Source of the DNA: Sipunculus nudus
Taxonomy: Eukaryota; Annelida; Sipuncula; Golfingiida; Sipunculidae
Assembly (NCBI GenBank): GCA_026874595.1
Contig: CM049310.1
Span: 77,431,056 to 77,495,055 of the forward strand
Direction of reading: 5' to 3'
Length of the DNA: 64,000 nucleotides
Part shown: in pieces, positions 151 to 61,350 of the stretch
Layout: each line of letters opens with the position of its first letter
How positions within the stretch are numbered: the first letter of the stretch is position 1
Notes under the pieces: model-generated
What the model saw: the letters and a program-made list of their open reading frames with translations, nothing else
Database searches by the model: none
What the model was told of the DNA's origin: nothing
Translations under genes and position numbers: made by a program

Positions 151-220
151 CTGGATGGCACACACATTCACTTCTATAATTGCATTTTCCATGACCACTG
201 CAGTCATTCAGACACTTGGG
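151..220 (-). CDS. Module 13, exon a (EGF; last exon in window)
   Basis: 70 nt. PKCLNDCSGHGKCNYRSEC then VCHP and the split Gly. Donor CCAG|gtgagg, so the gene continues past the left edge. Confidence 0.9.
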
Positions 221-590
221 CTGAAAAGCATAAATGCAACAATAACATATCAATCATTTTGTCATCTTATCTATCTCACCTTACTCATGCTGCACTGTAC
301 GTATTCCTATCTTAGTAAGATATTCAGAATTCTGACATAATAACATTTATACAAGTACATTTAACTGCTTCAAACTTTGCTCCTTAAATACTGTAGAATA
401 AGGAATGTGTGTTCATAAATAGATCTATTGGTACACTGCTATACCTATGTCATATGAAGAAATGATTTTCTATTTCATGTATACATCTCATAATAATTAA
501 AGCCAATAAAAATTAAATTTACTCAAAAACAAGTAAAATAACTGGAATTTCTTGGCACTGCAGGTGCCATAGTATCCCAAGACAATGATT

Positions 591-985
591 CCCCCTCCCC
601 CCCCCCCCCCCCCCCATTTAAGAACAGACCCCATCTTCAGCAACATATGCTGATACTTGGCAAGCAACCATGGTTTTTTCCATCTATCAACTTGACAATA
701 TTTTTCACCAAATATGGGTATATCCAAGGTCAAGGCGACTCTCATAGGAGAGGTCATGATCCCAATTTAAATATATTCAAACAAGAAAAGGACAGGTGGA
801 CCCACCTGTCTTCCACAGAAGACAAAGCTATCAAAGATCTTCATTCAATTTGTTTTTGGGACCAATCCATGCATCCCTTATTGAGATATATTTAAGATTT
901 TGTGTGATTTTTACCAAATACAGAAATATTCAAGGTCAAGGTCACTCTCATAGGAGATGTCATGACCCCAATTTAAAAATACATC
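591..985. repeat. Poly-C tract and two copies of a ~75-bp direct repeat
   Basis: A run of C with one T at 591-615. Segments at about 700-775 and 905-980 share CCAAATA..., CAAGGTCAAGG, ACTCTCATAGGAGA and GTCATGA-CCCAATTTAAA. They lie in the module 12-13 intron and are non-coding. Confidence 0.75.
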
Positions 986-1184
986 ATCCCATAACCCATA
1001 ACTATGTATATGCATAATATGAAGGAAATATGTCTGTTAGTTTTTTTACTTATAATGCTCATAGTACTGTCAAGCGGCAATGATGGGGTATTTAAAGGGT
1101 TGAAAACAGTAGGACAGAAGGTGGGGTCACCTTTTTTCTTTGTCTTCTATTTGACTCCTAACTGCTCTATTTTCAACAACTTAC

Positions 1185-1406
1185 TTGTGTATCTGAGCAG
1201 AAGGCACAGTTGATGTTGAAGCGTTTGGCTTCACTGGTTTTACTACCAACCACTATCTGCATTGAGTACCCATGACTGAGTCCGTAAGTGTAATCATCAA
1301 GCCAGGTAGTGACCGCTGGGACTGGACATTCCACTTTGCTGACAGGTTTTGCTGTACCCTTGAAACGGTATGTCTGCTCACCTTCTGTCCATGTTCCACC
1401 AGTTTT
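1185..1406 (-). CDS. Module 12, exon c
   Basis: 222 nt. KTGGTWTEG (no Pro after Trp), VECPVPAV, YTYGLSHGYSMQIVV, NCAFCSDTQ. Diverged like module 0 exon c, with Ser for the last Trp. Donor CAA|gtaagt. Confidence 0.9.
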
Positions 1407-1884
1407 CTGATTATGACATACTTTGGTTTTTATATAAATAAATTAAAAATATACATTACTTATATAAATTTTATATATCCCATTTTTCATAATGAGGTAT
1501 AGGTTAACTACTAGCAAGTTGCTCATCCTGAAAAACTGATTCATCCACTCCTTTTATCTGAACAAGGATTTACTTCTTACCAAATTAATTCAAAATTAAA
1601 CTTTAACTTATCATTTTTGTATCAGACTCATCAAATATGATAGAAAATTCTAATATGATAATACTTGTTCATCAAAGTACTTGCACAAATGAACAAATTA
1701 TATTATTTTTTAGATGAAACAGCAAGTCCAAAGCTGTTTCATTTAATTATAAAAATGACCACTGTTATAGACATTTTTCATATGTAACTTGAGACTTCTC
1801 AAGCTGAGCAACAGAAACTTAATTAGTACAAGACACTGTAAATGATAATACTGCTCAATCTTACTTTTAAATGATCACACTCAC

Positions 1885-2060
1885 CTTGACATACTTGACT
1901 ACACACAAGACATCATCCCGTGGGTCATAATTGTTGACTGCTAGAGTGACACTTGTACCGCATGTGTCTGTTCTGGCCTGGAGAGCACAGCTGGGAGGCA
2001 AAATGGCCGTTATCTCCGGAGGTCTATCCTTTACCACAGAACAGTCAAGTCCTCTGTACC
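1885..2060 (-). CDS. Module 12, exon b
   Basis: 176 nt. RYRGLDC, DRPPEITAI, C-x9-C with Gly after the second Cys, AVNNY (Tyr for the usual Phe) and LCVVKYVK. The most diverged b exon. Donor AAG|gtgagt. Confidence 0.9.
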
Positions 2061-2437: not shown

Positions 2438-2507
2438 TTGTTTCACAGACACAAGTGTTTTCAGCAGTGCATCTTCCATGGTTACTGCAGTCATTTGGAC
2501 ATTTGGG
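2438..2507 (-). CDS. Module 12, exon a (EGF, junction Gly replaced)
   Basis: 70 nt. PKCPNDCSNHGRCTAENTC then VCET. The last base is A, so the split codon reads AGG (Arg) in place of Gly. Donor ACAA|gtaagc. Confidence 0.88.
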
Positions 2508-2883: not shown

Positions 2884-3105
2884 ACGACCAGCTGGACAGT
2901 GACTACATGTTATAGTGTAGGTAACTCCAGTGCTTGTCCTTCCATCAACCTCAACCTTCATCCAATAACCGTGAGTACGTCCATATGTGTACTGATCTAA
3001 CCAGGTCCTGACTCTTGGTACTGGACACAAGATGTTACCATCAGCATTCACACTTCCTTCTACTCTTTTTGTGTCCCATGTAAGTGGCCATTTTCCATCT
3101 GATTG
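2884..3105 (-). CDS. Module 11, exon c
   Basis: 222 nt. QSDGKWPLT, ILCPVPRV, YTYGRTHGYWMKVEV, TCSHCPAGR. Ends CGT|gtaagg; the alternative gt two bases earlier would break the phase. Confidence 0.9.
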
Positions 3106-3486: not shown

Positions 3487-3577
3487 GAATAACTTACCTT
3501 GCCATGAGCTACCAGACACCAGATAATTTTAATGTATTTTAGTATAACTTACCTTGCCATAAGCTACCATACACCAC
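3487..3577 (-). repeat. Short tandem copy of an exon end and splice donor
   Basis: Plus-strand ATAACTTACCTTGCCAT-AGCTACCA-ACACCA occurs at about 3490-3523 and again at 3544-3577. The second is the true 3' end and donor of module 11 exon b. The first lies downstream in the intron and keeps a perfect gtaagtta donor. Confidence 0.8.
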
Positions 3578-3728
3578 ACCTTGAGTGACTTATCAAAGTT
3601 GACCACCCTTAGAACAACCTTATCAGGGCAGTCATCAGTGATAGAGGACACAGTACATTTTGGTGTGAGGATCTCTTCAATGCTGGGTGGGAACTTGGTG
3701 TCCACAGAACAGTCACTTCCTGAGTAAT
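3553..3728 (-). CDS. Module 11, exon b
   Basis: 176 nt. YYSGSDC, KFPPSIEEI, C-x9-C, RVVNF, WCMVAYGK: the usual YVK ending is YGK. Donor AAG|gtaagt. A ~35-bp copy of this exon end and its donor lies just downstream in the intron. Confidence 0.88.
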
Positions 3729-3785
3729 CTGCAGAAACAGATCACAGTTTAATGAATTCACTTCCCATTACACTCAGAAAATCTC

Positions 3786-4455: not shown

Positions 4456-4525
4456 ACTTGTCACATTCACATTTCTGGTTTCTGTTGCACTGTCCCTGGC
4501 CACTGCAGTCATTTTCACAACGAGG
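4456..4525 (-). CDS. Module 11, exon a (EGF, junction Gly replaced)
   Basis: 70 nt. PRCENDCSGQGQCNRNQKC then ECDK. The last base is T, not G, so the codon split with the next exon reads TAT (Tyr) instead of the usual Gly. Donor AAGT|gtaagt is still good. Confidence 0.88.
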
Positions 4526-5379: not shown

Positions 5380-5601
5380 CTTAGTCTGTGGACAATAAGA
5401 ACAGTTCAAGTGGTAAATCTGATGGTTACTCGTCAGATCATCTGCTTTCACCTGGATCCAGTAACCATGCCAACGGCCATGTGTGAACCTGTTCAACCAG
5501 GAGCTAATTGCAGGAATATCACACTCAACCCCGTCACTTGTGAGTCTTGCTACTGACGACTTTAGACCAGTCACAGACTTTGGCCAGCCAACAACACCCC
5601 T
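5380..5601 (-). CDS. Module 10, exon c
   Basis: 222 nt. RGVVGWPKS, GVECDIPAI (Asp-Ile replaces Pro-Val), FTHGRWHGYWIQVKA, NCSYCPQTK with an N-C-S sequon. Donor AAG|gtaaat. Confidence 0.92.
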
Positions 5602-5862: not shown

Positions 5863-6038
5863 CTTGACATAATTGACCAAGCATGTCACACCAGTGGTCC
5901 TGACAAAGTTCCTGACTTCAAGCTGGACCTTGGTGGGACAGGAAGCCTGGGAACTGTTTATGTTACATGTAGCCGTTTTAATTCTAACAATGACTGGGGG
6001 TTGTCCTGCTTTAACAGAACAGTCTGCTCCAAGGAATC
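5863..6038 (-). CDS. Module 10, exon b
   Basis: 176 nt. GFLGADC (Phe for Tyr), GQPPVIVRIK, C-x9-C, EVRNF, TCLVNYVK. Donor AAG|gtatgt. Confidence 0.92.
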
Positions 6039-7081: not shown

Positions 7082-7151
7082 CTGCATTACATACACACTG
7101 GTTATTCTGGTTGCACTTTCCATTACCACTGCAGTCATTTGTACATGTAGG
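7082..7151 (-). CDS. Module 10, exon a (EGF)
   Basis: 70 nt. PTCTNDCSGNGKCNQNNQC then VCNA and the split Gly. Acceptor ttttag, donor GCAG|gtaatg. Confidence 0.9.
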
Positions 7152-7409: not shown

Positions 7410-7631
7410 CCTGGAAGGAGGACAGTAGGCACAGTTGATGTTGTATATCTTCTGCTGACTGGTCTGTCCGTCCACCTGCACTTGTATCCAGTATCCATGC
7501 TGGCGTGTGTATGTGAACTGGTCAAGCCAGGAGGTCACTGGTGGAACTGGACACTCCACTCCTGTAGTGGTCACTTTACCAGCTATGGACTGCAGGTCTG
7601 TTACTGAGGATGGCCATCTGCCTTCTGTAGA
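7410..7631 (-). CDS. Module 9, exon c
   Basis: 222 nt. STEGRWPSS, GVECPVPPV, FTYTRQHGYWIQVQV, NCAYCPPSR. Donor AGG|gtgagt. The intron after it (258 bp) is among the shortest. Confidence 0.92.
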
Positions 7632-8270: not shown

Positions 8271-10906
8271 AAACAAGGGACCTATGGGTCACGACGCTCA
8301 GCTGTTATATATGATAAAAAAATATTATTTAGAAATGAGGCACATGCTGGTTTTGTGTGGTAATAAATATAAGCTGTATTATGAGTTGTTGTTGTTTAGC
8401 TTATGTATGATTTTGATAGTACCTTTGGAGACAGGGAAGAGGATTGATTTCATTTATTTTATTAACAAATGGAGTACTATTGTCACACAGATTTTGACTT
8501 GGCTATATAACTTATAAGCAGAACATATAATATAAGAGTTTAACTATTTATTAAAAAAAATACAAATATTGTCCTAAATATAATTTTTATTAAAAATAAA
8601 AAGAGAATCATATGATTTTTTCAAAATGAAATATAACTGATATGATTATTAAAATAATATTAAAGAATATATTCATGAATGCATTCATGAATACATTTTG
8701 AAAGTATTTGCACGAGTATTCATATATTTTCATTTTTACCTGAATTCCCATTCTTTATGCAAGAAATTTTATAATGGAGTACAAAATCATATTTGTATTT
8801 AAATACAATTACAAATTATTTGCACCATGTCTGGAATTTATTCAGTTTTCACCAAACAATGATGTTGAGAATCCAGAATATACAAAATTCACACATTTAA
8901 ATAATGATCATAAGTACCTGGTTTTATGGCTTTTATTTATATTAAAAAATAACTGTAAAAAATTCATTTTGGACTAATTTCACATCAATGTACACACTAG
9001 ACACAGCAGGAATCTAGATTAATATTATCAACTGCATCTTTGTCTAATTTCCTTCATATGATCCATAATGATTAGTAATGAATAATATGATTTACTTCTT
9101 TATCATTAAAATTGAACTGAAAAATGCCATAGGTGACTGCATGGTGTTATTTGGAATATGTGACATTCTACCCATCGATACAAGATTCTTATATCATCAG
9201 TAACTGCAAGTTAATTTCCTGTTATTATAAACTAACAAATTCCTTTTCTACTTTTCTTTAATTTGTTATTAAAAACCAATAAAAATTTATTAATTTATTG
9301 TTTTTTGTTATGTTCTTGGTTAAAACTACTAGATGAGTTGGGTTGGACACCTGGATCAACTGTGGCTTGCCATAAGCTGCCTGGATTCCATGTATGCCTC
9401 GCCTCAAGTGTGCATAATTTGATGAAAGGTCAACAAGGTCAACATACAGGTGACTCAAGAGGGGCTGGAGAGAGCCAAAGTCTGACAGGGTCTCATAAAA
9501 AACATTAATAAAAGCTACAATTTTTGGCCAATTTCTTTCAGCTTTCTAAACTAAAAAGCTGAAATGCTTATGTGTGCATGATATGAAAATTATATCAACA
9601 GTGCTCATGGGAAACAAACGTGCCATGGTCACAGTTGGGCAAAATTTAAGGTACTAATTTTATATTTATACTAAATAAAATTTGAAAAATTCAGAACTAA
9701 TTTTGGGTATTCAATTGAATTTTGATTAAATAATGTTACATCCCTGACAAAAAAATCTCTAGCTTCAGCAATGCTCTTGTTAAGGGAGTAAATATATTTC
9801 TTGATTTTTTACAAAGTGCATTATGTTTGGTCCCATAACTTAAAACAATTACACAGTACTGACATCATTCTGGCATGTGCATAGAGAATGAAAAATATGT
9901 ATATTATTTATGATTAAAGTCAGATCAGTGGTTTTGATATTAGGCAGTCTTGAAGTGTAACAATGGGTTTTTAATGGAAAAATGAAGTTTTTCATTAATA
10001 TCTCGAATGTCCTAGTGACCAAATTCTTGGCATGGTAGGGCATTTTGGAGACATCTAACTGTATGCCGAATTTAAGGAACTAAGAGCTGAAGCTGGGGAG
10101 CTGAGCTCTTGCAAACTGCATAACACTAGCTTGATGTAAACAATATGTTACATGGTGCTTGAAAACTTGAATAAAATCTACAGTTTTTGATCAACTGGTT
10201 TCAAATTTTTGGTGTTAACAGATGAAATGCTAACAAAAACATGCTGTGAAAATTAAATCCACAGTACTTACAGGAAAAAAACGTGCCATGGTCAAAGTTG
10301 GGCAAAATTTAAGGTACAAATTTTTTATTTTTATTAATATTTTAAAAAATTTAAAAGATTTTCATCTAATTTTGGGTATACAATTTAATTTTGATTAATT
10401 AAAGTTATATTACTGGAAAAAAGGTCCATAGCATTAACATTTTTTGTGTTAAGTGATCAAATATCTTTTCTGATTTTTTACAAAATGCATTATGTTTGGG
10501 CCCATAACTTTTTTAAATTAAATAATACAGACATAATTTCTGGCATGTACATAGGAACTATATAGAGGAATATTTATGGTAAATATGAGGTAAAACAGAT
10601 GAGTGGTTTTCATATTAGGCAGTCCTGAAGTGTGAAAATAGGTTTTTAATAAAAAATTGAGGTTTTTCCTTAATTTCTCAAAGGAACGAAGTTGCAAACA
10701 CCCAGTTTTCGGCTTGGTAGGAGATCTTGGGGACATCTAACATTATGCCGAATTTTGGATTCCTAGGTCTTACGGTTTCAAAACGTGCCACATCTACGGA
10801 CGGACGGACGGACGGACGGACGGACGGACGGACGGACAGACGGACGGACGACGGACAATGGACCACGACTATAGCTCAGATGACTTATAGTCAGCTGAGC
10901 TAAAAA
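8271..10906 (+). mobile_element. Long HINE/pearl-like element, copy 1
   Basis: Begins AAACAAGGGACCTATGGGTC and then CGCTCAGCTG. Ends with (ACGG)n, TATAGCTCAGATGACT, hairpin TGACT-TAT-AGTCA and GCTGAGCTAAAAA. The 5' GCTCAGCTG and 3' CAGCTGAGC are inverted repeats. The core has two ~660-bp units, each with CGTGCCATGGTCA...GTTGGGCAAAATTTAAGGTAC (9616, 10281). Non-autonomous: no transposase or Rep/helicase ORF. Near-identical over long stretches to 57953-60578. Confidence 0.8.
10796..10856 (+). repeat. (ACGG)n microsatellite inside HINE-like copy 1
   Basis: About a dozen ACGG units with a few ACAG and ACG variants, ~50 bp before the element's 3' end. Confidence 0.95.
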
Positions 10907-10974
10907 GTCCAGATTTTCAAATTTAAGTTTCTTATAATGGCGATGTCAATAAAGATGGGATCTAAAGTACCTAC

Positions 10975-11150
10975 CTTGACATATTTGACTAAACATGTGA
11001 CAGGTGACGTCTTGACAAAATTGGTGACTTTTAGCCTCAGTTTACTTGGACAAGTATCTGATCTGGTGTTTAATGTACAGCTTTCAGTCTCTATTTTCTC
11101 AAGGTCAGGAGGCTGCCCTGACACCACAGCACAGTCAGTGCCCTCATATC
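10975..11150 (-). CDS. Module 9, exon b
   Basis: 176 nt. GYEGTDC, GQPPDLEKIE, C-x9-C, KVTNF, TCLVKYVK. Donor AAG|gtaggt; the first long HINE-like copy ends only 68 bp past it. Confidence 0.92.
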
Positions 11151-11365: not shown

Positions 11366-12550
11366 CTAGAATACGGGTAGTCGACAAGCGACTATGTGTA
11401 TCCGCCGAAATCAGAGTGGGACGGGTGATGTGAGGCATTGATTGAGTGGCAAGGGGAAATAGAGTGAGGTGTGTTGCATATTAGCATGGATGTCTGCAGC
11501 TGAAATGTGAATATAGGTTGCGCCACCTACCACAAATTCCAGAAAGCTGTTCAAGTTGTATACATATGCAAATTTTAGGCAGATAAGTTAAACGACTACT
11601 TGTATATGAGTGATTTTATCTGAGAGCAGACAAACAGAAGGACACTGTGCAAAAATGGTGGCAGGTGGTGCCACCAATCTTGTGTATGATTAAGAGCTAT
11701 GTGAGATCTATACACATGCAAAATTAGGGGGGATATGTCAAACGAGTCCTGAGATATAAGCCTGAATGTCTGCAGCGTCAACATAAATGTAGGTGGCGCC
11801 ACCTGCCACAAAATCGAGGAAGCTTACTAAGATGTATAAACCTGCAAAATTTTAGGCAGATATGTCAAACCACTGCTGAGATATGAGTGATTTTATCCCA
11901 CGGCAGACAAACAGAAGGACGCTGTGCAAAAATGGTTGCAGAAGTCACCACCAGTTTTGCATATGATAAAGAGCTATGTGATATCTATACACAAGCAAAA
12001 TTTTGGCCCAATCAATCAAATTGTTTCAGAGATATGAGCTTGGATGTCTGCAGCGTAAACGTGAATGTAGGTGGCGCCACCTGTCACAAAATAGAGAAAG
12101 CTATCCAGGATGTATACACATGCAAAATTCAGGTTGATAAGTCCAACTAATGCAGGGATATGAGTAATTTTATCCCAAGGCAGATGAACAGATGGATGCA
12201 GTTCAAAAATGGTTGCAGGTGGTGCTACCATTTTTAGTGTATGTTATAAAGCTATCCAAGGGCTACATTTGTGTAAAATTTTTAGCCCGATCAGTCAAAC
12301 GAGTCCAGAGATATGGGGGTTTATGTGTAAACACAGATGCACAAATGGACGCAGAGCGCAGAGGAAAGGTCAGAGGTCAAAACAAAATTGGGGCGCAGCA
12401 GTTCACATGTGACCCGAAGATAATCCTGGGTTTCGTAAAATTCCTCCCAGCGATTACGGAGGAGTTCTCTGGAAACCTACGCGGCCGCGGCGGCAGCGGC
12501 GTCAGACTGAAAACATAGTATCCGCTAAACTCTGTTTTGGCGGATACAAT
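11366..12550 (+). mobile_element. Family B Helentron-like repeat, copy 1
   Basis: Starts ATACGGGTAGTCGACAAGCG, where AGTCG-ACAAG-CGACT can form a hairpin, followed by GTATCCGCCGAAA. Ends with hairpin TATCCGC...GCGGATAC, which also inverts the 5' GTATCCGCC. The core is ~280-bp tandem units, each with CTGTGCAAAAATGGTTGCAG and most with a GGTGGCGCCACC-type palindrome. No coding capacity. Confidence 0.75.
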
Positions 12551-12909: not shown

Positions 12910-12979
12910 CTATGTCACATTCACATTGGTTGTCTCTGTTGCATCTTCCTTTTCCACTGCAGTCATTGACACAGTGAGG
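12910..12979 (-). CDS. Module 9, exon a (EGF)
   Basis: 70 nt. PHCVNDCSGKGRCNRDNQC then ECDI and the split Gly. Acceptor ttatag, donor ATAG|gtatag. Family B repeat copy 1 sits in the next intron. Confidence 0.9.
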
Positions 12980-14105
12980 CTATAAAATATAAACATTTAC
13001 CAGTAAAACATCAGCAACTTTATCATCCACTCATCAGACAACTCTTGTAAGCTTCTCATCCTACCCCTATAGATACTTTATTACATGGATGTCCTGTTAA
13101 AATAAGTAACAAATATATTTCCCAAAGATAAATTCAACCATAAAGAAAAACCATAAATCAATAGCATGATATATTTTATTCTGATTAATTATCAATACCA
13201 TATCATCACTGTGTTAGAAAAAAACAATATCTATTTCTTTTACAAATGTTAATTAAGGTTTGAATCTAGCTGCCATATATGGTCAAATATTTGAACATCA
13301 CTGGTTTGGAATTCTATTTTTTTTAATAAGTGAAATTCTAATCATTTGCTTTTAACTATATAGTAATTTTGTATCAACAAATATATGAACATTTGAAAGT
13401 TATCCAAAAGTACACTTCAAGTGAAACTCAATCTCCAGGTTTTACTTAACTGTTGATCAGTTAAAAAAAATATCAAACTTGAATTACCTTGTTTGGACGG
13501 CAGTAAGTACAATCTATCATGTATATTCGGTGGTCACTTGTCAAGTTACCAACAGCTACCTGGATCCAGTAACCATGCCAACGGCCATAGGTAAATCTGT
13601 CCAACCAGGACCTGACCGATGGGACGGTACACTCTATACTTGAGGTGGTCACTACAGCTGGACGGCTTGCTAAGTTGCTGACTACAGATGGCCAACGTCC
13701 ATTTTGTCTCTGCAACAAAGCCATTGCAAATGTCAATCTTTTATATCATATGTATCAATCTAAACATAAAATATGCCCAGTACTGCAATGGAAATAAAGA
13801 AGAATATTGTCAAATCCCATGGTGAAGCAATTTAATGAAAGAGTAACTAAAAAATATTTCTCATAAACCACTGTAATCAAACAGAAAATTTTTTTTTTTG
13901 GTTGATATGTATATGTATTTTGCCACTTCATAAAGATCTTTTCCCTTTATGTTCCTTAAGTTAACTTTTTTTGAGCAAAAACATGTGAAGAATTTAAAAC
14001 TTTCATAAGCAGGTGGTGCATGATCATGTGATTCATATGTAATCAAAATTAAAAATATATATCAAGAGGCAGCTGGGCCAGGCATAAAAACATCTGGCAG
14101 AAAAG
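12980..14105. other. Intron sequence flanking module 8 exon c
   Basis: 12980-13487 and 13710-14105 are AT-rich. Nothing recognised beyond short homopolymer runs. Confidence 0.5.
13488..13709 (-). CDS. Module 8, exon c
   Basis: 222 nt. RQNGRWPSV, IECTVPSV, FTYGRWHGYWIQVAV, a GNLTSD loop with a possible N-glycosylation site, DCTYCRPNK. Donor AAG|gtaatt. Confidence 0.92.
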
Positions 14106-17817: not shown

Positions 17818-17993
17818 CTTAACATAAGCTACCATGCAGGTCAATGGGGTACTCCTGATAAAATTAGTGACTTCAAGTTTTATGGAGGTTTCACACTGTT
17901 TTTGTAAACTGTCCACTGTGCACATAGGAGTCACAAATCTCACAATGACGGGAGGTTGATTTGTCACCACAGAGCAGTCTTCTCCACCATACC
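17818..17993 (-). CDS. Module 8, exon b
   Basis: 176 nt. GYGGEDC, NQPPVIVRF, C-x9-C with Glu in place of the usual Pro after the second Cys, EVTNF, TCMVAYVK. A family A repeat ends 62 bp beyond the donor. Confidence 0.92.
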
Positions 17994-18813: not shown

Positions 18814-18883
18814 CTTCTACACATTCACACATGTTGTTCCTGTTACATTTCCCATGTCCCCTGCAGTCATTCTTACAGGTAGG
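18814..18883 (-). CDS. Module 8, exon a (EGF)
   Basis: 70 nt. PTCKNDCRGHGKCNRNNMC then ECVE and the split Gly. The Ser after the second cysteine is Arg. Acceptor cttatag, donor GAAG|gtgagt. Confidence 0.9.
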
Positions 18884-19253: not shown

Positions 19254-19475
19254 CTTTGTTGGAGGGCAGTATGAGCAGTCAATTTCAAAAACCTTCCCTG
19301 AGCTTGTCTGTCCATCTACCTGAATCTGGATCCAGTGACCATGCCAACGGCCCCAGGTAAACTCGTTATACCATGTGCTAATGGCTGGCACTGGGCATTC
19401 CACACCTGAACCAGACACCACTCCTGCGTATCGTTTGGTTTCTGTGACTGAGGTAGGCCACTTCCCTTCTTCTTT
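19254..19475 (-). CDS. Module 7, exon c
   Basis: 222 nt. KEEGKWPTS, GVECPVPAI, WYNEFTWGRWHGHWIQIQV (His for Tyr in HGYW), DCSYCPPTK. Donor AAG|gtatgc. Confidence 0.92.
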
Positions 19476-19991: not shown

Positions 19992-20167
19992 CCTTACATA
20001 CTTTACCAAACAGGAGACAGTAGAGGTTTGGACAAAGTTACTGGCTTGGAACTTGATTTTGGTGGGGCACTCAGAGCTCAGGCTGGATAGAGTGCATGTT
20101 CCAGTGATAAAACGATCAATTGTTGGAGGCTTACCAGAGATTACAGAGCAGTCTGGACCGCGATATC
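19992..20167 (-). CDS. Module 7, exon b
   Basis: 176 nt. GYRGPDC, GKPPTIDRFI, C-x9-C, QASNF, SCLVKYVR. The last codon is AGG (Arg), not Lys; donor AGG|gtaagt. Confidence 0.92.
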
Positions 20168-20495: not shown

Positions 20496-20565
20496 CTTGC
20501 TGACATTCACACACACTGTTTCTGTTACATCTTCCATGACCGCTACAGTCACGCTGACACTGTGG
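20496..20565 (-). CDS. Module 7, exon a (EGF)
   Basis: 70 nt. PQCQRDCSGHGRCNRNSVC then ECQQ and the split Gly. Acceptor tttcag, donor CAAG|gtacag. Confidence 0.9.
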
Positions 20566-21316: not shown

Positions 21317-21538
21317 CTTTTGCTCTGGGCAGTATGAACAATCCATTCTGTACACTGCCTTTTCACTGGTTAAGCTCTCTGACTGAATCTGAATCCAGTA
21401 ACCATGCCAACGACCCCAGGTAAACCTGTCAAGCCAGGAAGCGGTTACAGGTACGGGACATTCCACTCCGCTGCTGGTGACTCTGCCAGGTGAGGTGATG
21501 GTCTCAGTTTCCCCACTGGACCAGCTGCCTCCGATCAT
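21317..21538 (-). CDS. Module 6, exon c
   Basis: 222 nt. MIGGSWSSG, GVECPVPVT, SWLDRFTWGRWHGYWIQI, DCSYCPEQK. The GRVTSSGVEC and LTSEK segments match module 5 exon c almost exactly. A tRNA-derived SINE-like element lies in the next intron. Confidence 0.92.
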
Positions 21539-22833
21539 CTGAAGAAGAAAAATATACAAAGCATTTACTCAAGCTTAGACATGAATATTTAATCAACATA
21601 ACCATCTGATACATAAGTAAAAACCCCATTACAGCAAATATTAAGCCTACACAGACTGAACCCTCTTCCTTATTTACCAATGAAAACTGGAATATTATTC
21701 ATGGATATAGGCAGCTTGTTTTGACAGGTATCTTTAAAAAATTCTGAGTATGAACCACAAGCTCAATTCCACCCCTTGTTCAATTAAATAAGTATTGACA
21801 AAATACTTTGTTTCTAGCTTTGCTTAATAGTTCTGTAATAACTGATATATCTGGTAAAGGAAAATTTCTGCATTGCAAAAAAACTGCAATAAAAATGAAA
21901 CATTTAGGTGACAGAATCTTCCAGATGTAGTTTTTTTATGAGGTGCATGACTCAGTAACATCATATGAGATAGACATTCATTATTGTATAAAGAAATCTT
22001 AATCATTTCATCATAACAATCAATATGATAAAACTATATGAAAGGTTCTGATGTAAGATAACCAACCTTGACATATGTGACCAAGCATGTGACTGGTTCT
22101 GTTGTAATAAAATTGGTGACTTTCATCTGTATAACAGAAGGGCAATGTGTGTCTGCACTGATTATATCACACACTTCTGTCTCAATCTGTTTAATAACAG
22201 GGGGCTGGCCTTCCACCACTGAACAATCAGGCCCACGATAACCTGAGCAGAAAGGATAAGATATTTAGTAGGTTTAAAATACAGACAAATAAGAAAGAGT
22301 GAAAATACAGTTAAAAACAACAAACGCAACAAATTGTTCAAATTACAGGTCGGTATATTGCTGTATTTATATGACTAAAATTATAATACATACCTCACAT
22401 ATTATCATATAAAACTGTTCTGTTAATAAATATATATATAAATAAAATTAAGGGAAGCTGATATGGACTTATTACGAAATCTTAACAGAAATGCCGAAGA
22501 TACAACATCATTAAATAATCAAATAGTTGTTGAATTTCATATCAAAATAAGTTGTGAAAAAATATGGTGGAGGAATATTTGAAAAGCTTTGAAAACAAGA
22601 ACATGTTCATGGGGACTATAACCATCAGACCACACTCAAACCAAAATTTCCAACTTTCAAACTTACCCATGGTTCCACTCACAGAGTGCTGATAATGAAC
22701 ACCCCACTCTACAACTATCATTATATCTTCTTGACAACATAAACTGACTGGGCATATAAAATTTGTGCAAACCAGGCCTGGTATCATATATTCTATAGCA
22801 GAAAGCAAGACAATATTAATGGATAAAACTGAC
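21539..22833. other. Introns around module 6 exon b
   Basis: 21539-22066 and 22243-22833: AT-rich; nothing recognised. Confidence 0.5.
22067..22242 (-). CDS. Module 6, exon b
   Basis: 176 nt. GYRGPDC, GQPPVIKQIE, C-x9-C, KVTNF, TCLVTYVK. Donor AAG|gttggt. Confidence 0.92.
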
Positions 22834-22903
22834 CTTCTTCACATTCACACTTGTTGTCCCTGTTACATCTTCCTCTGTCACTGCAGTCTTTCAGGCATCT
22901 TGG
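22834..22903 (-). CDS. Module 6, exon a (EGF)
   Basis: 70 nt. PRCLKDCSDRGRCNRDNKC then ECEE and the split Gly. Acceptor gttacag, donor GAAG|gtcagt. Confidence 0.9.
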
Positions 22904-23719: not shown

Positions 23720-23941
23720 CTGTTCATGTGGGCAATAACTGCAGTCCATTTTGTACACCATCTTCTCACTAGTTAAACCACTGGAGCGGATCTGGATCCA
23801 GTAGCCATGCCAACGACCCCACGTGAACCTGTCCAGCCAAGAGGAGACAGCAGGAACAACACACTCTACACCAGAACTGGTCACCCTGGCTGAAGTAGTT
23901 ATGAACTCAGTAGAGGGTGATAGCCAGTCTTCCCCCATACC
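23720..23941 (-). CDS. Module 5, exon c
   Basis: 222 nt. GMGEDWLSP at the start (no Pro directly after Trp), GVECVVPAV, SWLDRFTWGRWHGYWIQI, DCSYCPHEQ. Strikingly close to module 6 exon c in its second half. Confidence 0.92.
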
Positions 23942-27557: not shown

Positions 27558-27733
27558 CTTGACATACTTTACCAAGCACTCAGCTGGGAGAGTGTTGTCA
27601 AAGTTGGTGACTTCCAGTGTAATTGTTGTTGGACATTTGGACTGTAAATTGTTGATTGAGCAGGTCTGTGTGTCTATCCGACTTATGACTGGAGGACGCC
27701 CAGATAAAATAGAACAATCCTCCCCCTTGTATC
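27558..27733 (-). CDS. Module 5, exon b
   Basis: 176 nt. GYKGEDC, GRPPVISRID, C-x9-C, EVTNF and ECLVKYVK. Donor AAG|gtgagt. Confidence 0.92.
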
Positions 27734-28332: not shown

Positions 28333-28402
28333 CAACATCACATATACACTTTCTGTCCATGGTGCATCTACCTCTATTGCTGCAGTCGTTCAGACACTTT
28401 GG
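28333..28402 (-). CDS. Module 5, exon a (EGF)
   Basis: 70 nt. PKCLNDCSNRGRCTMDRKC then ICDV and the split Gly. Acceptor cgctag, donor GTTG|gtaggt. Confidence 0.9.
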
Positions 28403-29620: not shown

Positions 29621-31197
29621 TAAAATACGGGTAGCCAACAAGTGACTACGTGTATCTACCAAAATCGAATAAGTGAGGCATGGATTGAGTGGCAAGGGGA
29701 AACAGAGTGAGGTATGTTGCATATTAGCATGGATGTCTGCAGCCTAAATGTGTATGTAGGTTGTGCAACCTACAACAAATCCAGAAAGCTGTCCAGGTTG
29801 TATACATATGCAAAATTTTAGGCAGAAAAGTCAAACCACTACATGGATATGAGTGATTTTAGCCCACGGCAGACAAACAGACAGACGCTGTGCAAAAATG
29901 GTTGCAGTTTTGTGTATGATAATGACCTATGTGAGATCTAAACACAAGCACAATTTTGGCCCAATCGGTCAAATGGTTCCTGAGATATTAGCTTGGATGT
30001 GTGCAGCGTTAACTAGAATGTTGGTGGCGCCACCTGTCATAAAATCAAGAAAGCTATCCAGGATGTATAAACCTGCAAAATTTTAGGCAGTTATGTCAAA
30101 CCACTACAGAGAAATGAGTGATTTTAGGCCACGGCAGACCAACAGACAGACGCTGTGCAAAATGTGCAAAAATGGTTGCAGGTTGCCCCTCCAGTTTTGT
30201 GTATGATAAAGACCTATGTGAGATCTATACACATGCAAAATTTTGGCCCAATCGTTCAAACGGTTCCCGAGATATGAGCTTGGATGTCTGCAGCATAAAC
30301 TAGAATAAAGGTGGCACCACCTGTCATAAAATCAAGAAAGCTATCCAGGATGTATAAAACTGCAAAATTTTAAGCACATATGTCAAACCACTGCCAAGAT
30401 GTGAGTGACTTTATTGCACGGCAGACAAACAGACAGACGCTGTGCAAAAATGGTTGCAGGTGGTGCCACCAGTTTTGTGTATGATAAAGAGCTATGTTAG
30501 ATCTATACACATGCAAAATTTTTGCCCGATCGGTCAAACGGTTCCCGAGATATGAGCTTGGATGTCATCAGCGTGAACGTGAATGTAGGTGGTGCCACCT
30601 GTCATAAAATCAAGAAAGTTATCCAGGATGTATAAAACTGCAAAATTTTAGGCAGATATGTCAAACCACTGCCGAGATATGAGTGACATTATTGCACGGA
30701 AGACAAACAGACAGACGCTGTGCAAAAATGGTTGCAGGTGGTGCCACCAGTTTTGTGAAGGATAAAGAGCTATGTTAGATCTATATACATGCAAAATTTT
30801 TGCCCGATCGGTCAAACGGTTCCTGAAATATGAGCTTGGATGTCATCAGCATGAATGAGAATGTAGGTGGCGCCACCTGTCATAAAATCAAGAAAGCTAT
30901 CCAGGATGTATACGCATGCCGAATCTCAGGTGAATTAGTCAAAGGCAGATGAACAGATGGACACTGTGCAAACATGGTTACAGGTGGCGCCACCATTTTT
31001 TGTGTATGTTATAGAGCTATCCAAGGGCTACATTAGTATAAATTTTATTTCCTGATCAGTCAAACGGTTCCCGAGATATGAGCTTGGAAAGCTGATAAAA
31101 TCAAGTCCCAGAGGAGCTCTCTGGAAACAAATGCGACAACGGCGGAGGAACCCGGTCAAAAACATAGTATCCACAAAACTTCGTTTTGGCGGGTACA
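29621..31197 (+). mobile_element. Family B Helentron-like repeat, copy 2, nested in family A
   Basis: Starts AATACGGGTAGCCAACAAGT and ends TTCGTTTTGGCGGGTAC. The core has about five ~280-bp units with ACGCTGTGCAAAAATGGTTG and GGTGG(C/T)GCCACC boxes. The 5' hairpin stem is degraded here compared with copy 1. Confidence 0.75.
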
Positions 31198-36863: not shown

Positions 36864-37085
36864 CTTGGTTGGAGGACAAAATGAGCAGTCCATCTCATAT
36901 ATCAATTTACCACTCTTAAGGCCTTCCACTTGGATCTGTATCCAGTAACCATGAGAGCGCCCCCAGGTGAACCGATCAAGCCAAGAACTGACTAGAGGAA
37001 CAGGACACTGTACTCCCGTGTCAGTGTGAACCCCAGCCATTGACTGCAGCTTAGACACAGTGGCAGGCCAACTTCCGTTTTCCTT
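36864..37085 (-). CDS. Module 4, exon c
   Basis: 222 nt. KENGSWPAT, GVQCPVPLV, FTWGRSHGYWIQIQV, DCSFCPPTK. Donor AAG|gtgagt. The intron after it is the largest in the window (8.5 kb) and holds nested repeats of families A, B and C. Confidence 0.92.
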
Positions 37086-39399: not shown

Positions 39400-39575
39400 C
39401 TTGACATATTGCACAAGACAAGAAACAGGAGAAGTCTTGACAAAGTTTCTGGCTTGTAGCCTGAGCCTGGTTCGGCATCGTGCATTAGGTCCAGACACAG
39501 TGCATTTTTCAGTTTCTATCCGGATGAGTACTGGTGGTTGTCCAGCCTCAACCGAGCAGTCATCTCCTCGCCAAC
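39400..39575 (-). CDS. Module 4, exon b
   Basis: 176 nt. Trp replaces the Tyr after the split Gly (GWRGDDC). GQPPVLIRIE, C-x9-C, a basic RTRLRLQARNF strand and SCLVQYVK. Donor AAG|gttcgt is the weakest donor in the gene by consensus. Confidence 0.9.
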
Positions 39576-39908: not shown

Positions 39909-39978
39909 CTTCATCACATATACAACTTCTTCTTATGTTACAGCGGCCATGACTGGAACAATCATTCAAGCACTTAGG
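39909..39978 (-). CDS. Module 4, exon a (EGF)
   Basis: 70 nt. PKCLNDCSSHGRCNIRRSC then ICDE and the split Gly. Acceptor tttttag, donor GAAG|gtaaag. Confidence 0.9.
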
Positions 39979-42279: not shown

Positions 42280-42501
42280 CTGTTCTGCAGGACAGTAGGT
42301 GCAACGCATTTCGTAGATCTTCTGTTGGCTTGTTTTCCCACCGACTCTCACCTGGATCCAGTAACCATGCCAACGACCCCAAACGAACTGGTTCACCCAG
42401 GTACTGACCTTGGGGACTGGACATTCAACTGCATTTTCTGAGACAATTCCTTGTACTTCTTTAACTGCATCTGCAGTGGCTGGCCATTTATCATTGGTTT
42501 T
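42280..42501 (-). CDS. Module 3, exon c
   Basis: 222 nt. KTNDKWPAT at the start, AVECPVPKV, FVWGRWHGYWIQVRV, RCTYCPAEQ. Donor CAG|gtaaac. The next intron carries a near-complete family C repeat. Confidence 0.92.
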
Positions 42502-43859: not shown

Positions 43860-43912
<53 letters not shown>

Positions 43913-43996: not shown

Positions 43997-44172
43997 CTTG
44001 ACATACTGCACCAGACATACAACATCTGCAGTCCTGACAAAGTTGCTGACTTGGAGTGTCACAGACAGAGGGCACTGAGCCTCCTCTTTGTCCACAGTAC
44101 AGGATGAAGAAATAATTCTCTCGATAACTGGAGGCTGACCAGCAATAACAGAGCAGTCAATCCCTTCAAATC
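43997..44172 (-). CDS. Module 3, exon b
   Basis: 176 nt. GFEGIDC (Phe replaces the usual Tyr), GQPPVIERI, C-x9-C, QVSNF, VCLVQYVK. Acceptor ctgcag, donor AAG|gtaatg. Confidence 0.92.
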
Positions 44173-46572: not shown

Positions 46573-46642
46573 CTTCATTACATTCGCACTTTGAATCTCT
46601 GTTACATCTGCCTTGGCTACTGCAGTTGCGGGGACACACAGG
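46573..46642 (-). CDS. Module 3, exon a (EGF)
   Basis: 70 nt. PVCPRNCSSQGRCNRDSKC then ECNE and the split Gly. The N-C-S triplet is a possible glycosylation site. Donor GAAG|gtaagc. Confidence 0.9.
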
Positions 46643-47630: not shown

Positions 47631-47684
47631 GTTGTGAAGAGTTTTGACATGTGTATATTCCCTATCTGGTGGTAAGTACACTAC

Positions 47685-47906
47685 CTGAGCAGATGGACAA
47701 TAGGCACAATCCATGATGAACACTTCTCTTTTACTTGTAGCTCCACCAGATCGGATCTGGATCCAGTAGCCATGGAAACGACCCCAAGTGAACCTATTCA
47801 GCCAGGTCTGCACTGCTGGCACAGGACATTCCACACCTGTGGCTGTCACTGTTCCTGGGAAATGCTTGATACCAGTAGCACTTGATGGCCAGGACCCTTG
47901 TGTTCT
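47685..47906 (-). CDS. Module 2, exon c
   Basis: 222 nt, phase 0 to 0. Starts RTQGSWPSS; GVECPVPAV, FTWGRFHGYWIQIR and DCAYCPSAQ follow. Acceptor tttag, donor CAG|gtagtg. Confidence 0.92.
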
Positions 47907-52869: not shown

Positions 52870-53045
52870 CTTTACATAAGCCACTAAACATTCCACTGCA
52901 GCTGATTTGTCAAAGTTGCTGACTGATAACTCGATCTTCTCAGGACATCTGGCTTGCAGAGTGTTTATTATACATTTGGAAGTTTCAATGCTGTCAATGG
53001 TTGGTGGGTGGCCAGCTCGAACTGCGCAGTCAGACCCAGTGTATC
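52870..53045 (-). CDS. Module 2, exon b
   Basis: 176 nt, phase 1 to 0. GYTGSDC closes the EGF; HPPTIDSIE, C-x9-C, SVSNF and ECLVAYVK follow. Donor AAG|gtcagt. The next intron, 5.0 kb, is filled with diverged family A repeats. Confidence 0.92.
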
Positions 53046-53797: not shown

Positions 53798-53838
<41 letters not shown>

Positions 53839-54976: not shown

Positions 54977-55046
54977 CTGTGTCACAAACACACTTCTGCT
55001 CCCTGTTACAACGTCCATGGCGACTGCACTGGTTCGGACACTGTGG
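54977..55046 (-). CDS. Module 2, exon a (EGF)
   Basis: 70 nt, phase 0 to 1. PQCPNQCSRHGRCNREQKC then VCDT plus split Gly. Acceptor cctcag, donor ACAG|gtgaca. All five expected cysteines are present. Confidence 0.9.
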
Positions 55047-55230: not shown

Positions 55231-55263
<33 letters not shown>

Positions 55264-56377
55264 TCATTCTGACTAGAGTACTGCATAATATTTCAGTATT
55301 ACTTTAATAATGTACAATTTAATATTTAGAATTTAATTATATTTACAACAGCTAGCTCTATAATTAATAGGTTGAAAAAATTTATCTTTTAAATAGAGCA
55401 TTTAATTTTCAAATACTGTATGCGATTTTATAAATTTTATAAAGCTTTTATTCTAGTAAAATTTTAATTACATTCAACTAATTCATACAAAATTAAGATA
55501 TGTTTTAGATTATATCAAAATCAATTTTGTTAGTATTACATTTAAATAAATGTACATTACCCTGGTCTGAGGACAATAGGAGCACCGCATCTCAAAGATT
55601 CCCCGAGCACTCATCTGACCACTGACACGAATCTGTATCCAGTAACCATGCATGCGACCCCAAGTGAACTGATTGTACCATGTACTGACTGCAGGTACAG
55701 AACAGGTGACAGAGTCAGCTGTGACCACAGCATCAAACTCCTTTATGCCAACAGCTGATCCTGGCCAGCTACCTCCGTCTTGCTGTCAAAACAAGAAATG
55801 ACAAGTTTTTTGTATTTTATCATGACAGAATGAATGGTCATCACCGTTTTTTTTTTTTTTTTTCCTGTAATCAGTCACTGAAGGCAATTTAAATTTGAGT
55901 CTAGGTAAAAACAGGTTTTATGACATCATAAAACATAATATGATGAAAACTTCTGTTATTCAAGAGTTATTCAGTCTTCTGTATTAAACCAAGAGTAAAA
56001 TATACTTGTTTAAGGTAATGAGCATAGCCATGTTGAATGTATACTGCAACACTCGCTTTTTATCTCTCTGTCACTCTGTCCCTGGTGATATCTTGGACTT
56101 CGATTGTCGTCCTTGAAGTTTAAATATACCCTGGTCTCAGACTTATAAGCTTGTGGCCCTTGGTGTTCCTTAAACCACTAGGGGGAAAATCACTTGTTCA
56201 CTTGTCTATACAGAACACAAAATTCCAAACTGGTGATTAACTGGTCTAGTGGGTGTTTATTTGGAAACCAGATAAGATCATACTATGGAGAGTAAAATAA
56301 TGCAAACAAATACTTCATATTAACTCAGTTAACATATCAATTAATGTTACACTCTATGCTCCTGTTACCTCACTTAC
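55047..56377. other. Introns either side of module 1 exon c
   Basis: 55047-55560 holds an (AT)n tract at about 55235-55261. 55783-56377 holds a T run at 55847-55863. No other feature. Confidence 0.6.
55561..55782 (-). CDS. Module 1, exon c
   Basis: 222 nt, phase 0 to 0. Starts QDGGSWPGS, carries TCSVP in place of ECPVP, then the FTWGRMHGYWIQIRV strand and RCSYCPQTR at the donor (AGG|gtaatg). Confidence 0.92.
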
Positions 56378-56553
56378 CTTCACATAGGCTACCAGACACT
56401 TGACAGTCTGAGACCTATCAAAGTTGCTGACTCTGAGAACAATCCTGGTGGGGCATACTGCTTGAGCATTGTCCAGAACACATGGTGTGGTTGTGAAACC
56501 ATCAATGACTGGTGGCTGGCCACTCTGGATGGCGCAGTCAGGGCCTGAGTAAC
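56378..56553 (-). CDS. Module 1, exon b (EGF end + domain first half)
   Basis: 176 nt, phase 1 to 0. Begins with the split Gly then YSGPDC (EGF cysteine 6), then GQPPVIDGF, a C-x9-C pair, a RVSNF strand and KCLVAYVK at the donor (AAG|gtaagt). This is the typical form of the exon. Confidence 0.92.
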
Positions 56554-57952: not shown

Positions 57953-60578
57953 AAACAAGGGACCTATGGGTCACAGCGCTCAGCTGTTATAAATGATAAA
58001 AAAATATGATTTAGAAATGAGGCACATGCTGGTTTTGTGTGGTAATAAGTATAAGCTGTATTATGAGTTGTTGTTGTTATGCTTATGTATGATTTTGATA
58101 GTACCTTTGGAGACAGAGAAGAGAATTGATTTCATTTATTTTATTAACAAATGGAGTACTATTGTCACACAGATTTTGACTTGGCCATATAACTTATAAG
58201 CAGAACATATAATATAAGAGTTTAACTATTTATTAAAAAAATTACAAATATTGTCCCAGATATAATTTTAATAAAAAATAATAAGAGAATCGTATGATTT
58301 TTAAAATGTAATATAACTGAAATGATTATTAAAATAATATTAAAGAATATATTCATGAATGCATTCATGAATACATTTGGAAAGTATTTGCACTGGTATT
58401 CATACACTTTCATTTTTACCTGAATTCCCATTCTTTATGCAAGAAATTTTATAATGGAGTACATATTCATATTCGTATTTAAATACAATTGCAAAGTATT
58501 CCCACCATGTCTGGTATTTATTCAGTTTTCACCAAACAATGGTGTTGAGAATCCAGAATGTACAAAATTCATACATTTAAATAATGATCATAAGTACCTG
58601 GTTTTATGGCTTTTATTTATATTAAAAAAAATAAATGTGATATATTCATTTTGGACTAATTTCACATCAATGTACACACTAGACACAGTAGGAATCTAGA
58701 TTAATATTATCAACTGCATCTTTGTCTATCATTAATTTCCTTCATATGATCCCTAATGATTAGTAATGAATAATATGATTTACTTTTTTATTATTAAAAT
58801 TGAACTGAAAAATGCCATAGGTGACTGCATGGTGTTATTTGGAATACGTGACATTCTATCCATCGATACAAGATTCTTATATCATCAGTAACTGCAAGTT
58901 AATTCCCTATTATTATAAACTAACAAATTCCTTTTCTATTTTTCTTTAATTTGTTATTAAAAACCAATAAAAATTGATGAATTTATGGTTTATTGTTATG
59001 TTGTTGGTTAAAACTACTAGATGAGTTGGGTTGGACACCTGGATCAACTGTGGCTGGCCATAAGCTGCCTGGCTGCCCCAGTATATGCCTCGCCTCAAGA
59101 GTGCATAATTTGCCGAAAGTTCAACAAGGTCAGCATACAGGTGACTCAAGAGTGGCTGGAGAGAGCCAAGGTCTGACATGGTCTCATAAAAACATTTATA
59201 AAAGCTACAATTTATGGCCAATTTCTTTCAGCTTTCTAAACTAAAAAGCTGAAATCCTTATGTGTGCATGATATGAAAATTATATAAACAGAGCTCACAT
59301 GAAACAAAAGTGAAATGGTGAAAGTTGGGCAAAATTTAAGGTACTAATTTTATATTTATACTAATAACTTATAAATATTTAAAAATTCAGAACTAATTTC
59401 GGGTATTCAATTGAATCTTGATTAAATAATGTTACATCCCTGACAAAAAACCTCTAGCTTCAGCAAGCCCCTTGTTAAGGGAGTAAATATATTTCTTGAT
59501 TTTTTACAAAGTGCATTATGTTTGGGCCCATAACTTAAAACAATTACTCAATACTGACATCATTTCTGGCATGTGCACAGAGAAGGTATAGAAAAACATG
59601 TATATTATATATGATTAAAGTCAGATCAGTGGTTTTGATATTAGGCAGTATTGAAGTGTAACAATGGGTTTTTAATTGAAAAATGAAGTTTTTCATTAAT
59701 ATCTCACAGGTATTAAGTCCTAGTGACCAAATTCTTGGCATGGTAGGGAATTTTGGAGACATCTAATTGTATGCCAAATTTTAGGAACTGAGAGCTTAAG
59801 CTGGGGAGCTGAGCTCTTTCAAACTGCATAACACTAGCCTGATGTAAACAATATGTTACAAGATGCTTGAAAACTTGAATAAAATCTACAGTTTTTGATC
59901 AACTGGTTTCAAATTTTTGGTGTTAACAGACAAAATGCTAACAAAAACATGCTGAGAAAATTAAATCCACAGTACTTACAGGAAAAAAATGTGCCATGGT
60001 CAAAGTTAAGCAAAATTTAAGGTACCAATTTTTTATTTTTGTTAATGTTTTAAAAAATTTAAAAGATTTTGATCTAATTTTGGGGATACAATTTAATTTT
60101 GATTAATCAAAGTTATATTACTTGAAAAAAAGTCCATAGCTTGTACAAGTTTTGTGTTAAGTGATCAAATATCTTTCCTGATTTTTTACAAAATGCATTA
60201 TGTTCTGGCCCATAACTTTCTTAAATTATATAATACAGACATAATTTCTGGCATGTACATAGGAACTATATAGAGGAATATTTATTGTAAATATGAGGAA
60301 AAACAGATGAGTGGTTTTGATATTAGGCAGCCCTGAAGTGTGAAAATAGGTATTTAATAAAAAATTAAGGTTTTCCTTAATTTCTCAAAGGAACAAAGTC
60401 GCAAAGACCCAGTTTTCGGCTTGGTAGGAGATCTTGGGGACATCTAACACTATACCGAATTTTGGATTCCTAGGTCTTACGGTTTCAAAACGTGCCACAT
60501 CTACGGACAGACGGACGGACGGACAGACAACGGACCATGACTATAGCTCAGATGACTTACAGTCAGCCGAGCTAAAAA
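57953..60578 (+). mobile_element. Long HINE/pearl-like element, copy 2
   Basis: Matches 8271-10906 end to end in the same orientation, with scattered substitutions and small indels. The (ACGG)n tract is much shorter (about 60505-60527). The 3' inverted repeat carries one change (CAGCCGAGC); the TGACT-TAC-AGTCA hairpin is intact. Confidence 0.8.
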
Positions 60579-60691
60579 TCTGCTGCTGTTATTATAATTC
60601 AGGTCCAGACACAAAAAGAATGAATATGGGAACTTAGTCATGACATCATTCTAAAATTTATATCATTATTGCTCTACTAAATAATACATAC

Positions 60692-60761
60692 CTGGATCAC
60701 AGTCACATTGCTGATCCCTATAACAGCGCCCATGGCCACTGCAGTTATTTGCACACTGGGG
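60692..60761 (-). CDS. Module 1, exon a (EGF cysteines 1-5)
   Basis: 70 nt, phase 0 to 1, acceptor ctcag and donor CCAG|gtatgt. Encodes PQCANNCSGHGRCYRDQQC and then DCDP, with the Gly codon split across the next intron. N-C-S forms a possible N-glycosylation sequon. The following intron is 4.1 kb and holds the second long HINE-like copy, which ends 113 bp from this exon's donor side. Confidence 0.9.
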
Positions 60762-61122
60762 CTGAGTTGAAATTAAACAAACTTATTATTTTGATATGAT
60801 CACAGTTAATAGCAAATTAGTTTCTATAACAGCTTCAGTATCTCACATAAATTTACCATCCAAAGGGAAGTCTACCATAGACAAATAGGATTAGATTTAT
60901 CTGGTATCACATATGATAGTTTACCATGACCCGAGTCTCTTATTTGTACATCATCAGAAATGTATGACATGATAATGAGGTGTATTATTCTAATAATGAG
61001 AAGAGACTTTCAACAAGCTAGGTCATGTTTTTTTTCTAAATGATTTTGAAAAAAAAAAAACTGAGTTTCCCTTCTATTAATGCATAATAATGATTTCTTT
61101 AAAACACACTGTTTTTACATAC
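60762..61122. other. Intron, module 0c to 1a
   Basis: 361 bp with an A run near 61050; nothing recognised. Confidence 0.55.
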
Positions 61123-61350
61123 CTTTGTGGCAGGGCAATAGAGGCAGTTCATTTGATAGATTGCCCGTGCACTAATTTTTTGATGCCCCTGAACACGAAG
61201 CTGGATGGAGTAACCGTGCCACTGACCCCAGGTATATCTGTTAAACCAGGTGCCCACTGCTGGAACTGGACATGTGACCGTGTCACCACTCACACTCCCC
61301 AGGACCTCATTTGGTGTGGGTGTCGCAGGCCAAGTCCCATCAGCTCCTCT
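61123..61350 (-). CDS. Module 0, exon c (domain second half; first exon in window)
   Basis: Acceptor cag at 61351-61353, donor gt (AAG|gtatgt) at 61121-61122. It encodes 76 residues, phase 0 to 0. It is the only c exon longer than 222 nt: two extra codons lie in the loop after the QLRVQG strand (HQKIS in place of a shorter loop). The CPVP, WHGY and NCLYCP signatures are present, but the Trp of HGYW is Ser. The upstream a and b exons are not found between here and position 64000. Confidence 0.9.

Follow-up and report, generated by a model that had tools for sequence, protein, structure and literature searches.

How can a repeated coding unit keep the lengths of its exons to the nucleotide while its protein sequence and its introns vary widely? 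The question is raised by a stretch of 64,000 nucleotides (nt) of the Sipunculus nudus genome (assembly GCA_026874595.1, contig CM049310.1, abbreviated C5; C5:77431056-77495055), which is called the window below. An earlier note described in this stretch twelve modules of three exons each (a, b and c, of 70, 176 and 222 nt) and proposed either that the encoded domain tolerates substitutions and almost no insertions or deletions (indels), or that the array has been homogenised at the exon level. It is very probable that the locus as a whole is explained by a giant gene for a single-pass membrane protein, the modules of which arose by tandem duplication and inherited their exon lengths, most indels being purged by selection. 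The window is probably the middle slice of this gene, whose predicted product is a VWDE-like membrane protein.

Extent of the array and the ends of the gene

The exon lengths described in the earlier note stand. On its minus strand, the window contains 13 exons a of 70 nt, 12 exons b of 176 nt and 13 exons c, 38 in total; 12 of the exons c are 222 nt long, and the remaining one (228 nt, in the first partial module) is the sole deviant. The shared phases are found as well (0 to 1 across exon a, 1 to 0 across b, 0 to 0 across c), with AG and GT borders at 38 of 38 exons, and the introns of the twelve complete modules range from 258 to 8461 nt. As the window search had these lengths and phases as its input, what it shows is that none of the 38 exons lacks its AG or GT at the expected position. 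When the splice sites were chosen by score (candidate sites up to 30 nt away, spaced by multiples of 3 nt, which imposed the frame), the lengths remained unchanged in 35 of the 38 exons. The scored choice favoured 61 over 70 nt for exon a of module 7, 167 over 176 nt for exon b of module 1, where two AGs lie 9 nt apart, and 228 over 222 nt for exon c of module 10. In these three ambiguous exons the site homologous to that of the other modules was set by hand, which makes their lengths less certain.

The twelve modules of the earlier note are present in the window, but their number is an edge effect. In a genome search, matches to exon b (44 in total, with 46 for exon c) extend far past the window edges. 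The uninterrupted array has the composition c(abc)x39. Its 118 exons run on the minus strand from C5:77492405 down to 77355501, and all of them have AG/GT borders. No stop codon is found in the spliced reading, which is a single open frame of 6,206 codons. A frame that stays open over this length when the window exons are spliced with their neighbours excludes chance.

The array is followed on its 3' side by a 153-nt exon (C5:77354847-77354695), which encodes a hydrophobic transmembrane helix and then CRKKKK, and by a Ser/Gly-rich tail exon of 474 codons and a stop (C5:77354162-77352738). Both are readable in phase 0. Counted from the first exon c of the window to this stop codon, the product has at least 6,731 residues. 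Upstream of the array, further module exons are located on C5 at 77512993 (b), 77515009 (c), 77567761 (a), 77570509 (c) and 77571953 (b), and there is a weak exon-a match at C5:77572987 (E 0.26). The upstream exons amount to about three further modules, partly seen, in a count that leaves out C5:77525056-77561055. Still further upstream, on the strand of the array, the frame at C5:77578254-77578033 gives a partial match to VWD (PF00094), which scores 24.8 bits against a cut-off of 22.9 and covers the last 42 of the 156 profile positions. Two other frames upstream of this VWD exon have no Pfam match.

The same order of parts is found in a compact paralogue on the same contig (C5:14981056-15031055, at 14.98-15.03 Mb): a VWD-like motif precedes EGFs and a series of about ten b-like and eleven c-like exons, after which comes a hydrophobic helix. 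The VWD-like motif of the paralogue scores 22.6 bits, just under the cut-off of 22.9.

Exon lengths and module history

Over the 39 modules of the array, exon a is 70 nt long in 39 of 39, one of these exons having a hand-chosen site and another being added by hand. Exon b is 176 nt long in 35 of 39 (one hand-chosen), and lengths of 173, 179, 182 and 167 nt occur once each. Exon c is 222 nt long in 21 of 39 (one hand-chosen); the other lengths are 234 nt (six modules), 231 nt (five), 225 nt (three), 228 nt (three) and 219 nt (one). The abc unit measures 468 nt in 22 of 39 modules and 456-483 nt overall, always a multiple of 3, and phase 0 at both unit borders can be obtained from AG/GT sites in 39 of 39, the frame being imposed in the choice of sites. 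In the alignment, the length variants of exon c are situated mainly before a conserved Trp and before a conserved Ser of its last third.

The module tree puts these lengths in order. The group of modules 1-22 (m01-22) has support of 94/81, m01-10 has 100/99 and m12+m13 has 100/98; the supported sister pairs are m01/m02, m05/m06 and m12/m13. In a second tree, to which six of the about ten paralogue modules were added, m01-22 is one clade with support of 95/95. Its only exception in length is m16, with an exon b of 173 nt and an exon c of 225 nt. The exact 222-nt invariance is the inherited length of clade m01-22, with this one exception, and not a domain-wide rule. The second tree suggests that the 222-nt form was derived from a longer form, with an unsure root, since the paralogue rows fail to fall together on one side of a branch.

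Mapped on the tree, the length changes number 0 for exon a, 4 for b and 10 for c. The tree is 32.0 long, equivalent to about 5,095 substitutions in 159 columns, so that a change of length occurs about once in 364 substitutions. The claim that the domain tolerates substitution and almost no indels is largely right, but short indels do occur in the same gene (219-234 nt in c, 167-182 nt in b). The subtree of the twelve window modules is 7.97 long and carries 0 length changes, where 3.5 would be expected from the overall rate (P(0) 0.031) or 4.6 from the rate outside this subtree (P(0) 0.0097). As this test is post hoc and omits the 228-nt exon, the lack of length changes in the window is only mildly low. 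Clade m01-22 as a whole has 2 of the 14 changes (b and c of m16, counted by hand) on 48% of the tree (binomial p 0.014). The available portions of two papers on indel rates (PMC3001449, PMC2151769) offer no yardstick in matching units.

These figures bear on the idea that 70/176/222 nt is a hard structural rule, without which the domain would not fold or the rod would not pack regularly. The uniform exon a, the absence of changes among the window modules and the shortage of changes in clade m01-22 are what such a rule would give. Exons c and b of the same gene, however, vary in length, a 228-nt exon c occurs inside the window itself, and the sites picked freely in the stretch of the paralogue examined first, some of them maybe wrongly, give 64, 70 or 88 nt for exon a (88 nt in 3 of 5), 167-179 nt for b (170 nt in 4 of 7) and 207-243 nt for c (in 7). 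With the sites as chosen, a strict no-indel rule fails for b and c outside the window, and the structural rule is unlikely. An array of alternative-splicing cassettes, in which fixed lengths and phase 0 borders would allow any subset of modules to be joined in frame, is equally hard to credit. All 39 units, at the chosen sites, are multiples of three with phase 0 at both borders, but tandem duplication alone predicts the same borders. Moreover, exon skipping needs only multiples of three, for which 228 or 234 nt would serve as well, and the exact lengths would be left unexplained.

Homogenisation by gene conversion or unequal exchange, with equal lengths because the copies are recent, is less probable still. 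The 66 pairs of window modules are identical in 35-61% of their residues (mean 47%). Their silent sites are near saturation, which leaves the homogenisation proposed in the earlier note unsupported: the proportion of synonymous differences (pS, by NG86) is 0.60-0.87 with a median of 0.735, and the synonymous divergence (dS) is above 1.5 or infinite in 63 of the 66 pairs. A concertedly evolving repeat array would show low silent divergence, but even the lowest pS among these pairs is 0.60. Repeats of 2.6-2.7 kb in the introns are 92-94% alike whereas the nearby exons are not; young intron repeats beside divergent exons would speak against a sweep of the array by recent exchange. Exons a, b and c also carry correlated histories, as described below. 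In favour of some exchange are identical runs shared by aligned modules, the longest being 31 nt between modules 8 and 10, and a slight excess of identical four-fold sites. Such sites are identical in 728 of 2055 window comparisons (0.354, against a random expectation of 0.305), and the corresponding values are 0.346 against 0.306 for adjacent modules of the whole array and 0.346 against 0.304 within m01-22.

The explanation by tandem duplication, inherited lengths and selection against indels accounts for the relationships between the modules. The identity matrices of the exons correlate with each other (Mantel test; a-b r 0.12, p 0.029, which is weak; a-c r 0.18 and b-c r 0.48, both p 0.001), and identity declines with the distance between modules along the array (r 0.28, 0.39 and 0.51 for a, b and c; p 0.001). 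Both are patterns predicted by duplication of whole modules. The array has frame-neutral units, nearer neighbours that are more alike and exons of one unit that share their history. The array very probably grew by tandem duplication of the entire a-b-c unit, and the gain or loss of a unit keeps the frame because both of its outer borders are in phase 0. The exon lengths would be equal through descent of all copies from one unit and the loss of most indels under selection. The spacing of cysteines would fix the length of the EGF exon (70 nt in 39 of 39), and the fold encoded by b and c would accept indels mainly at two places of exon c. We infer that it is selection on cysteine spacing and packing that removes most indels.

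Several points weigh against this explanation. Junctions throughout are inferred from the genomic sequence, with phases imposed in the choice of sites. Three of the 38 window lengths depend on sites set by hand. A further exon a, situated outside the window, had escaped the first profile and was added by hand (70 nt, AG/GT ends). In the module tree, 21 of 36 inner branches have support below 80 and the bootstrap had not settled, so that the counts of events are rough. The four-fold excess and the 31-nt run may leave room for short conversion tracts. At the 5' end, the EGF exon expected between c 77515009 and b 77512993 was not found. The VWD match is linked to the array only by position, strand and the order in the paralogue, and both this locus and the paralogue are absent from the 125 matches at E<=0.001 of a genome-wide VWD search in which 150 of 284 candidates were scored.

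Domains of the protein and neighbouring sequences

The predicted protein would carry a VWD domain, followed by the modules (39 in one run and about three partly seen upstream), and end with the transmembrane helix and the Ser/Gly-rich tail. Each module would consist of a teneurin-type EGF followed by a six-cysteine domain of about 125 residues. In the modules scanned with Pfam hmmscan, exon a together with the first part of b matches EGF_Teneurin (PF23106), and EGF_Tenascin (PF18720) also matches within a three-module stretch. The array holds 39 such EGF exons. The rest of b together with c forms the unit of about 125 residues, in which six cysteines are invariant in 16 aligned sequences, three per exon. 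Because the number of cysteines on either side of the b/c junction is odd, this suggests a single domain bridged across the junction.

In 16 of the 39 spliced b+c sequences, the best Pfam values are E 0.018 (TrbM) and 0.025 (TIG_plexin), each in one sequence of the 16, and none is above the curated cut-off. A profile of the 16 sequences has 0 matches at E<=10 among PDB sequences. An assignment to IPT/TIG or to another catalogued domain finds no support in these two results. In Pfam scans of a spliced module, the 16 b+c sequences, the end exons and other spliced pieces, only EGF and VWD were credible. An AlphaFold2 prediction for exon c alone, from 13 window sequences, was unusable (predicted local distance difference test score, pLDDT, 62.3; predicted template modelling score, pTM, 0.39). 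Among the titles and abstract openings returned by literature searches, none describes the array or the b+c domain, which is weak evidence of absence. The b+c domain is possibly new, and so, possibly, is the membrane-anchored VWDE-like architecture. In the membrane-proximal module 39 (C5:77355501-77360018), one of the conserved cysteines of b is missing and c contains an additional one, possibly indicating a shifted disulfide.

On the strength of the VWD domain, the EGFs, the membrane anchor and the tail alone, the ectodomain might be a long disulfide-bonded rod that serves in adhesion or ligand binding, an assignment somewhat less likely than not. The number of modules would set the reach of this rod, and the copies would be free to diverge at exposed residues.

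Part of the gene has a relative nearby. A partial second copy of its 5' part is located at C5:77641742-77664477. The counterpart of the 228-nt exon c in this copy is 94.7% identical without gaps and carries a TAG. Seven exon pairs are seen between the two copies. Without the TAG-bearing pair and the exon-a pair 77567761/77663901, the remaining five give a pooled ratio of nonsynonymous to synonymous divergence (dN/dS) of 0.35, a sign of purifying selection. One of these five pairs is identical over 192 nt, and in each of the remaining four 15-33% of the silent sites are different; the second copy thus looks like a mosaic in age. In the compact paralogue, several exons a have a length of 88 nt and encode a linker resembling PPTTPAP. 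A weak match to exon b at C1:57620997-57621191 (E 0.0025) is perhaps a more distant relative.

The window and its surroundings contain repeats of several kinds. The interspersed repeat of 2.6-2.7 kb has three intronic copies (window 8271-10910 and 57953-60578, and C5:77427304-77429942), 92-94% identical and far younger than the surrounding exons. Mutually related intronic tandem arrays with a unit of 336-337 bp occupy window positions 15746-17658 and 31298-33359; arrays of 277-278 bp units, alike by eye, are found at 11478-12314 and 29905-30912, and an array of 5.3 copies of a 146-bp unit at 62287-63061. Just beyond the window, an 875-bp stretch occurs twice with 99.4% identity (C5:77495150-77496024 and C5:77500353-77501227).

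Table 1. Module exons of the window, in the order of the coding strand.
Feature	Window positions	Strand	Remark
First partial module, exon c, 228 nt	61123..61350	-	By eye, two residues more than in module 1 ahead of the conserved Ser
Module 1, exon a, EGF, 70 nt	60692..60761	-	
Module 1, exon b, 176 nt	56378..56553	-	Higher score for an alternative acceptor 9 nt further in
Module 1, exon c, 222 nt	55561..55782	-	
Module 2, exon a, 70 nt	54977..55046	-	
Module 2, exon b, 176 nt	52870..53045	-	
Module 2, exon c, 222 nt	47685..47906	-	
Module 3, exon a, 70 nt	46573..46642	-	
Module 3, exon b, 176 nt	43997..44172	-	
Module 3, exon c, 222 nt	42280..42501	-	
Module 4, exon a, 70 nt	39909..39978	-	
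Module 4, exon b, 176 nt	39400..39575	-	
Module 4, exon c, 222 nt	36864..37085	-	
Module 5, exon a, 70 nt	28333..28402	-	
Module 5, exon b, 176 nt	27558..27733	-	
Module 5, exon c, 222 nt	23720..23941	-	
Module 6, exon a, 70 nt	22834..22903	-	
Module 6, exon b, 176 nt	22067..22242	-	
Module 6, exon c, 222 nt	21317..21538	-	
Module 7, exon a, 70 nt	20496..20565	-	Internal donor scored higher
Module 7, exon b, 176 nt	19992..20167	-	
Module 7, exon c, 222 nt	19254..19475	-	
Module 8, exon a, 70 nt	18814..18883	-	
Module 8, exon b, 176 nt	17818..17993	-	
Module 8, exon c, 222 nt	13488..13709	-	
Module 9, exon a, 70 nt	12910..12979	-	
Module 9, exon b, 176 nt	10975..11150	-	
Module 9, exon c, 222 nt	7410..7631	-	
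Module 10, exon a, 70 nt	7082..7151	-	
Module 10, exon b, 176 nt	5863..6038	-	
Module 10, exon c, 222 nt	5380..5601	-	Higher score for a donor 6 nt beyond
Module 11, exon a, 70 nt	4456..4525	-	
Module 11, exon b, 176 nt	3553..3728	-	
Module 11, exon c, 222 nt	2884..3105	-	
Module 12, exon a, 70 nt	2438..2507	-	
Module 12, exon b, 176 nt	1885..2060	-	
Module 12, exon c, 222 nt	1185..1406	-	
Module 13, exon a, 70 nt	151..220	-	Exons b and c beyond the window: C5:77430496-77430671, C5:77425304-77425525

Comparison with known systems

That frame-neutral modules multiply by tandem duplication is well known, and the invariance of the exon lengths in itself adds little to this. The array is nevertheless a clean natural data set, with 39 copies of a unit in one protein, near-saturated silent sites and few length changes. 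It yields a rough ratio of indels to substitutions for one fold and shows the places where this fold tolerates indels. Of larger interest are the scale of the protein, with its residue count of at least 6,731, and the b+c domain, which has no significant Pfam or PDB sequence match. More speculatively than the rod itself, the fusion of an as yet uncatalogued b+c domain with EGF might define a class of membrane-anchored, VWDE-derived giant receptors, with members of about 10 and about 42 modules in this genome, in which frame-neutral gain of modules (perhaps also their splicing) would tune the length of the rod and its binding repertoire.

In the available text of PMC9117669, VWDE proteins, with their VWD domain and many EGF repeats, count as a secreted class. 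The protein described here resembles them in its multiple EGF repeats and may share the VWD domain, a partial match to which lies above the Pfam cut-off in a frame upstream of the array. It differs from VWDE proteins, known here by description, in that each EGF is followed by the domain of about 125 residues. It also has a C-terminal transmembrane helix and a tail of 474 residues; such an anchor is not mentioned for VWDE proteins in that portion of PMC9117669. Because of this anchor, the protein is called VWDE-like and not VWDE.

The EGFs themselves recall teneurins and tenascins, as exon a with the start of b matches EGF_Teneurin, and EGF_Tenascin is matched in the three-module stretch. Here, however, the EGFs alternate with another domain and do not form a run of adjacent EGFs. 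Teneurins are type II membrane proteins, whereas the transmembrane helix of the present protein is C-terminal to the array.

In the organisation of its exons, the gene can be compared with those of fibrillins and fibrillar collagens. Fibrillins and other multi-EGF genes have stereotyped repeat exons. Collagen exons are predominantly 54 nt long, lengths of 36 and 45 nt also being common, according to the available part of PMC4838654. The present gene shares with both groups the presence of many exons of one length and phase. It differs from them in its unit, which is divided into three exons by two inner junctions (one of them within a codon) and encodes disulfide-rich domains.

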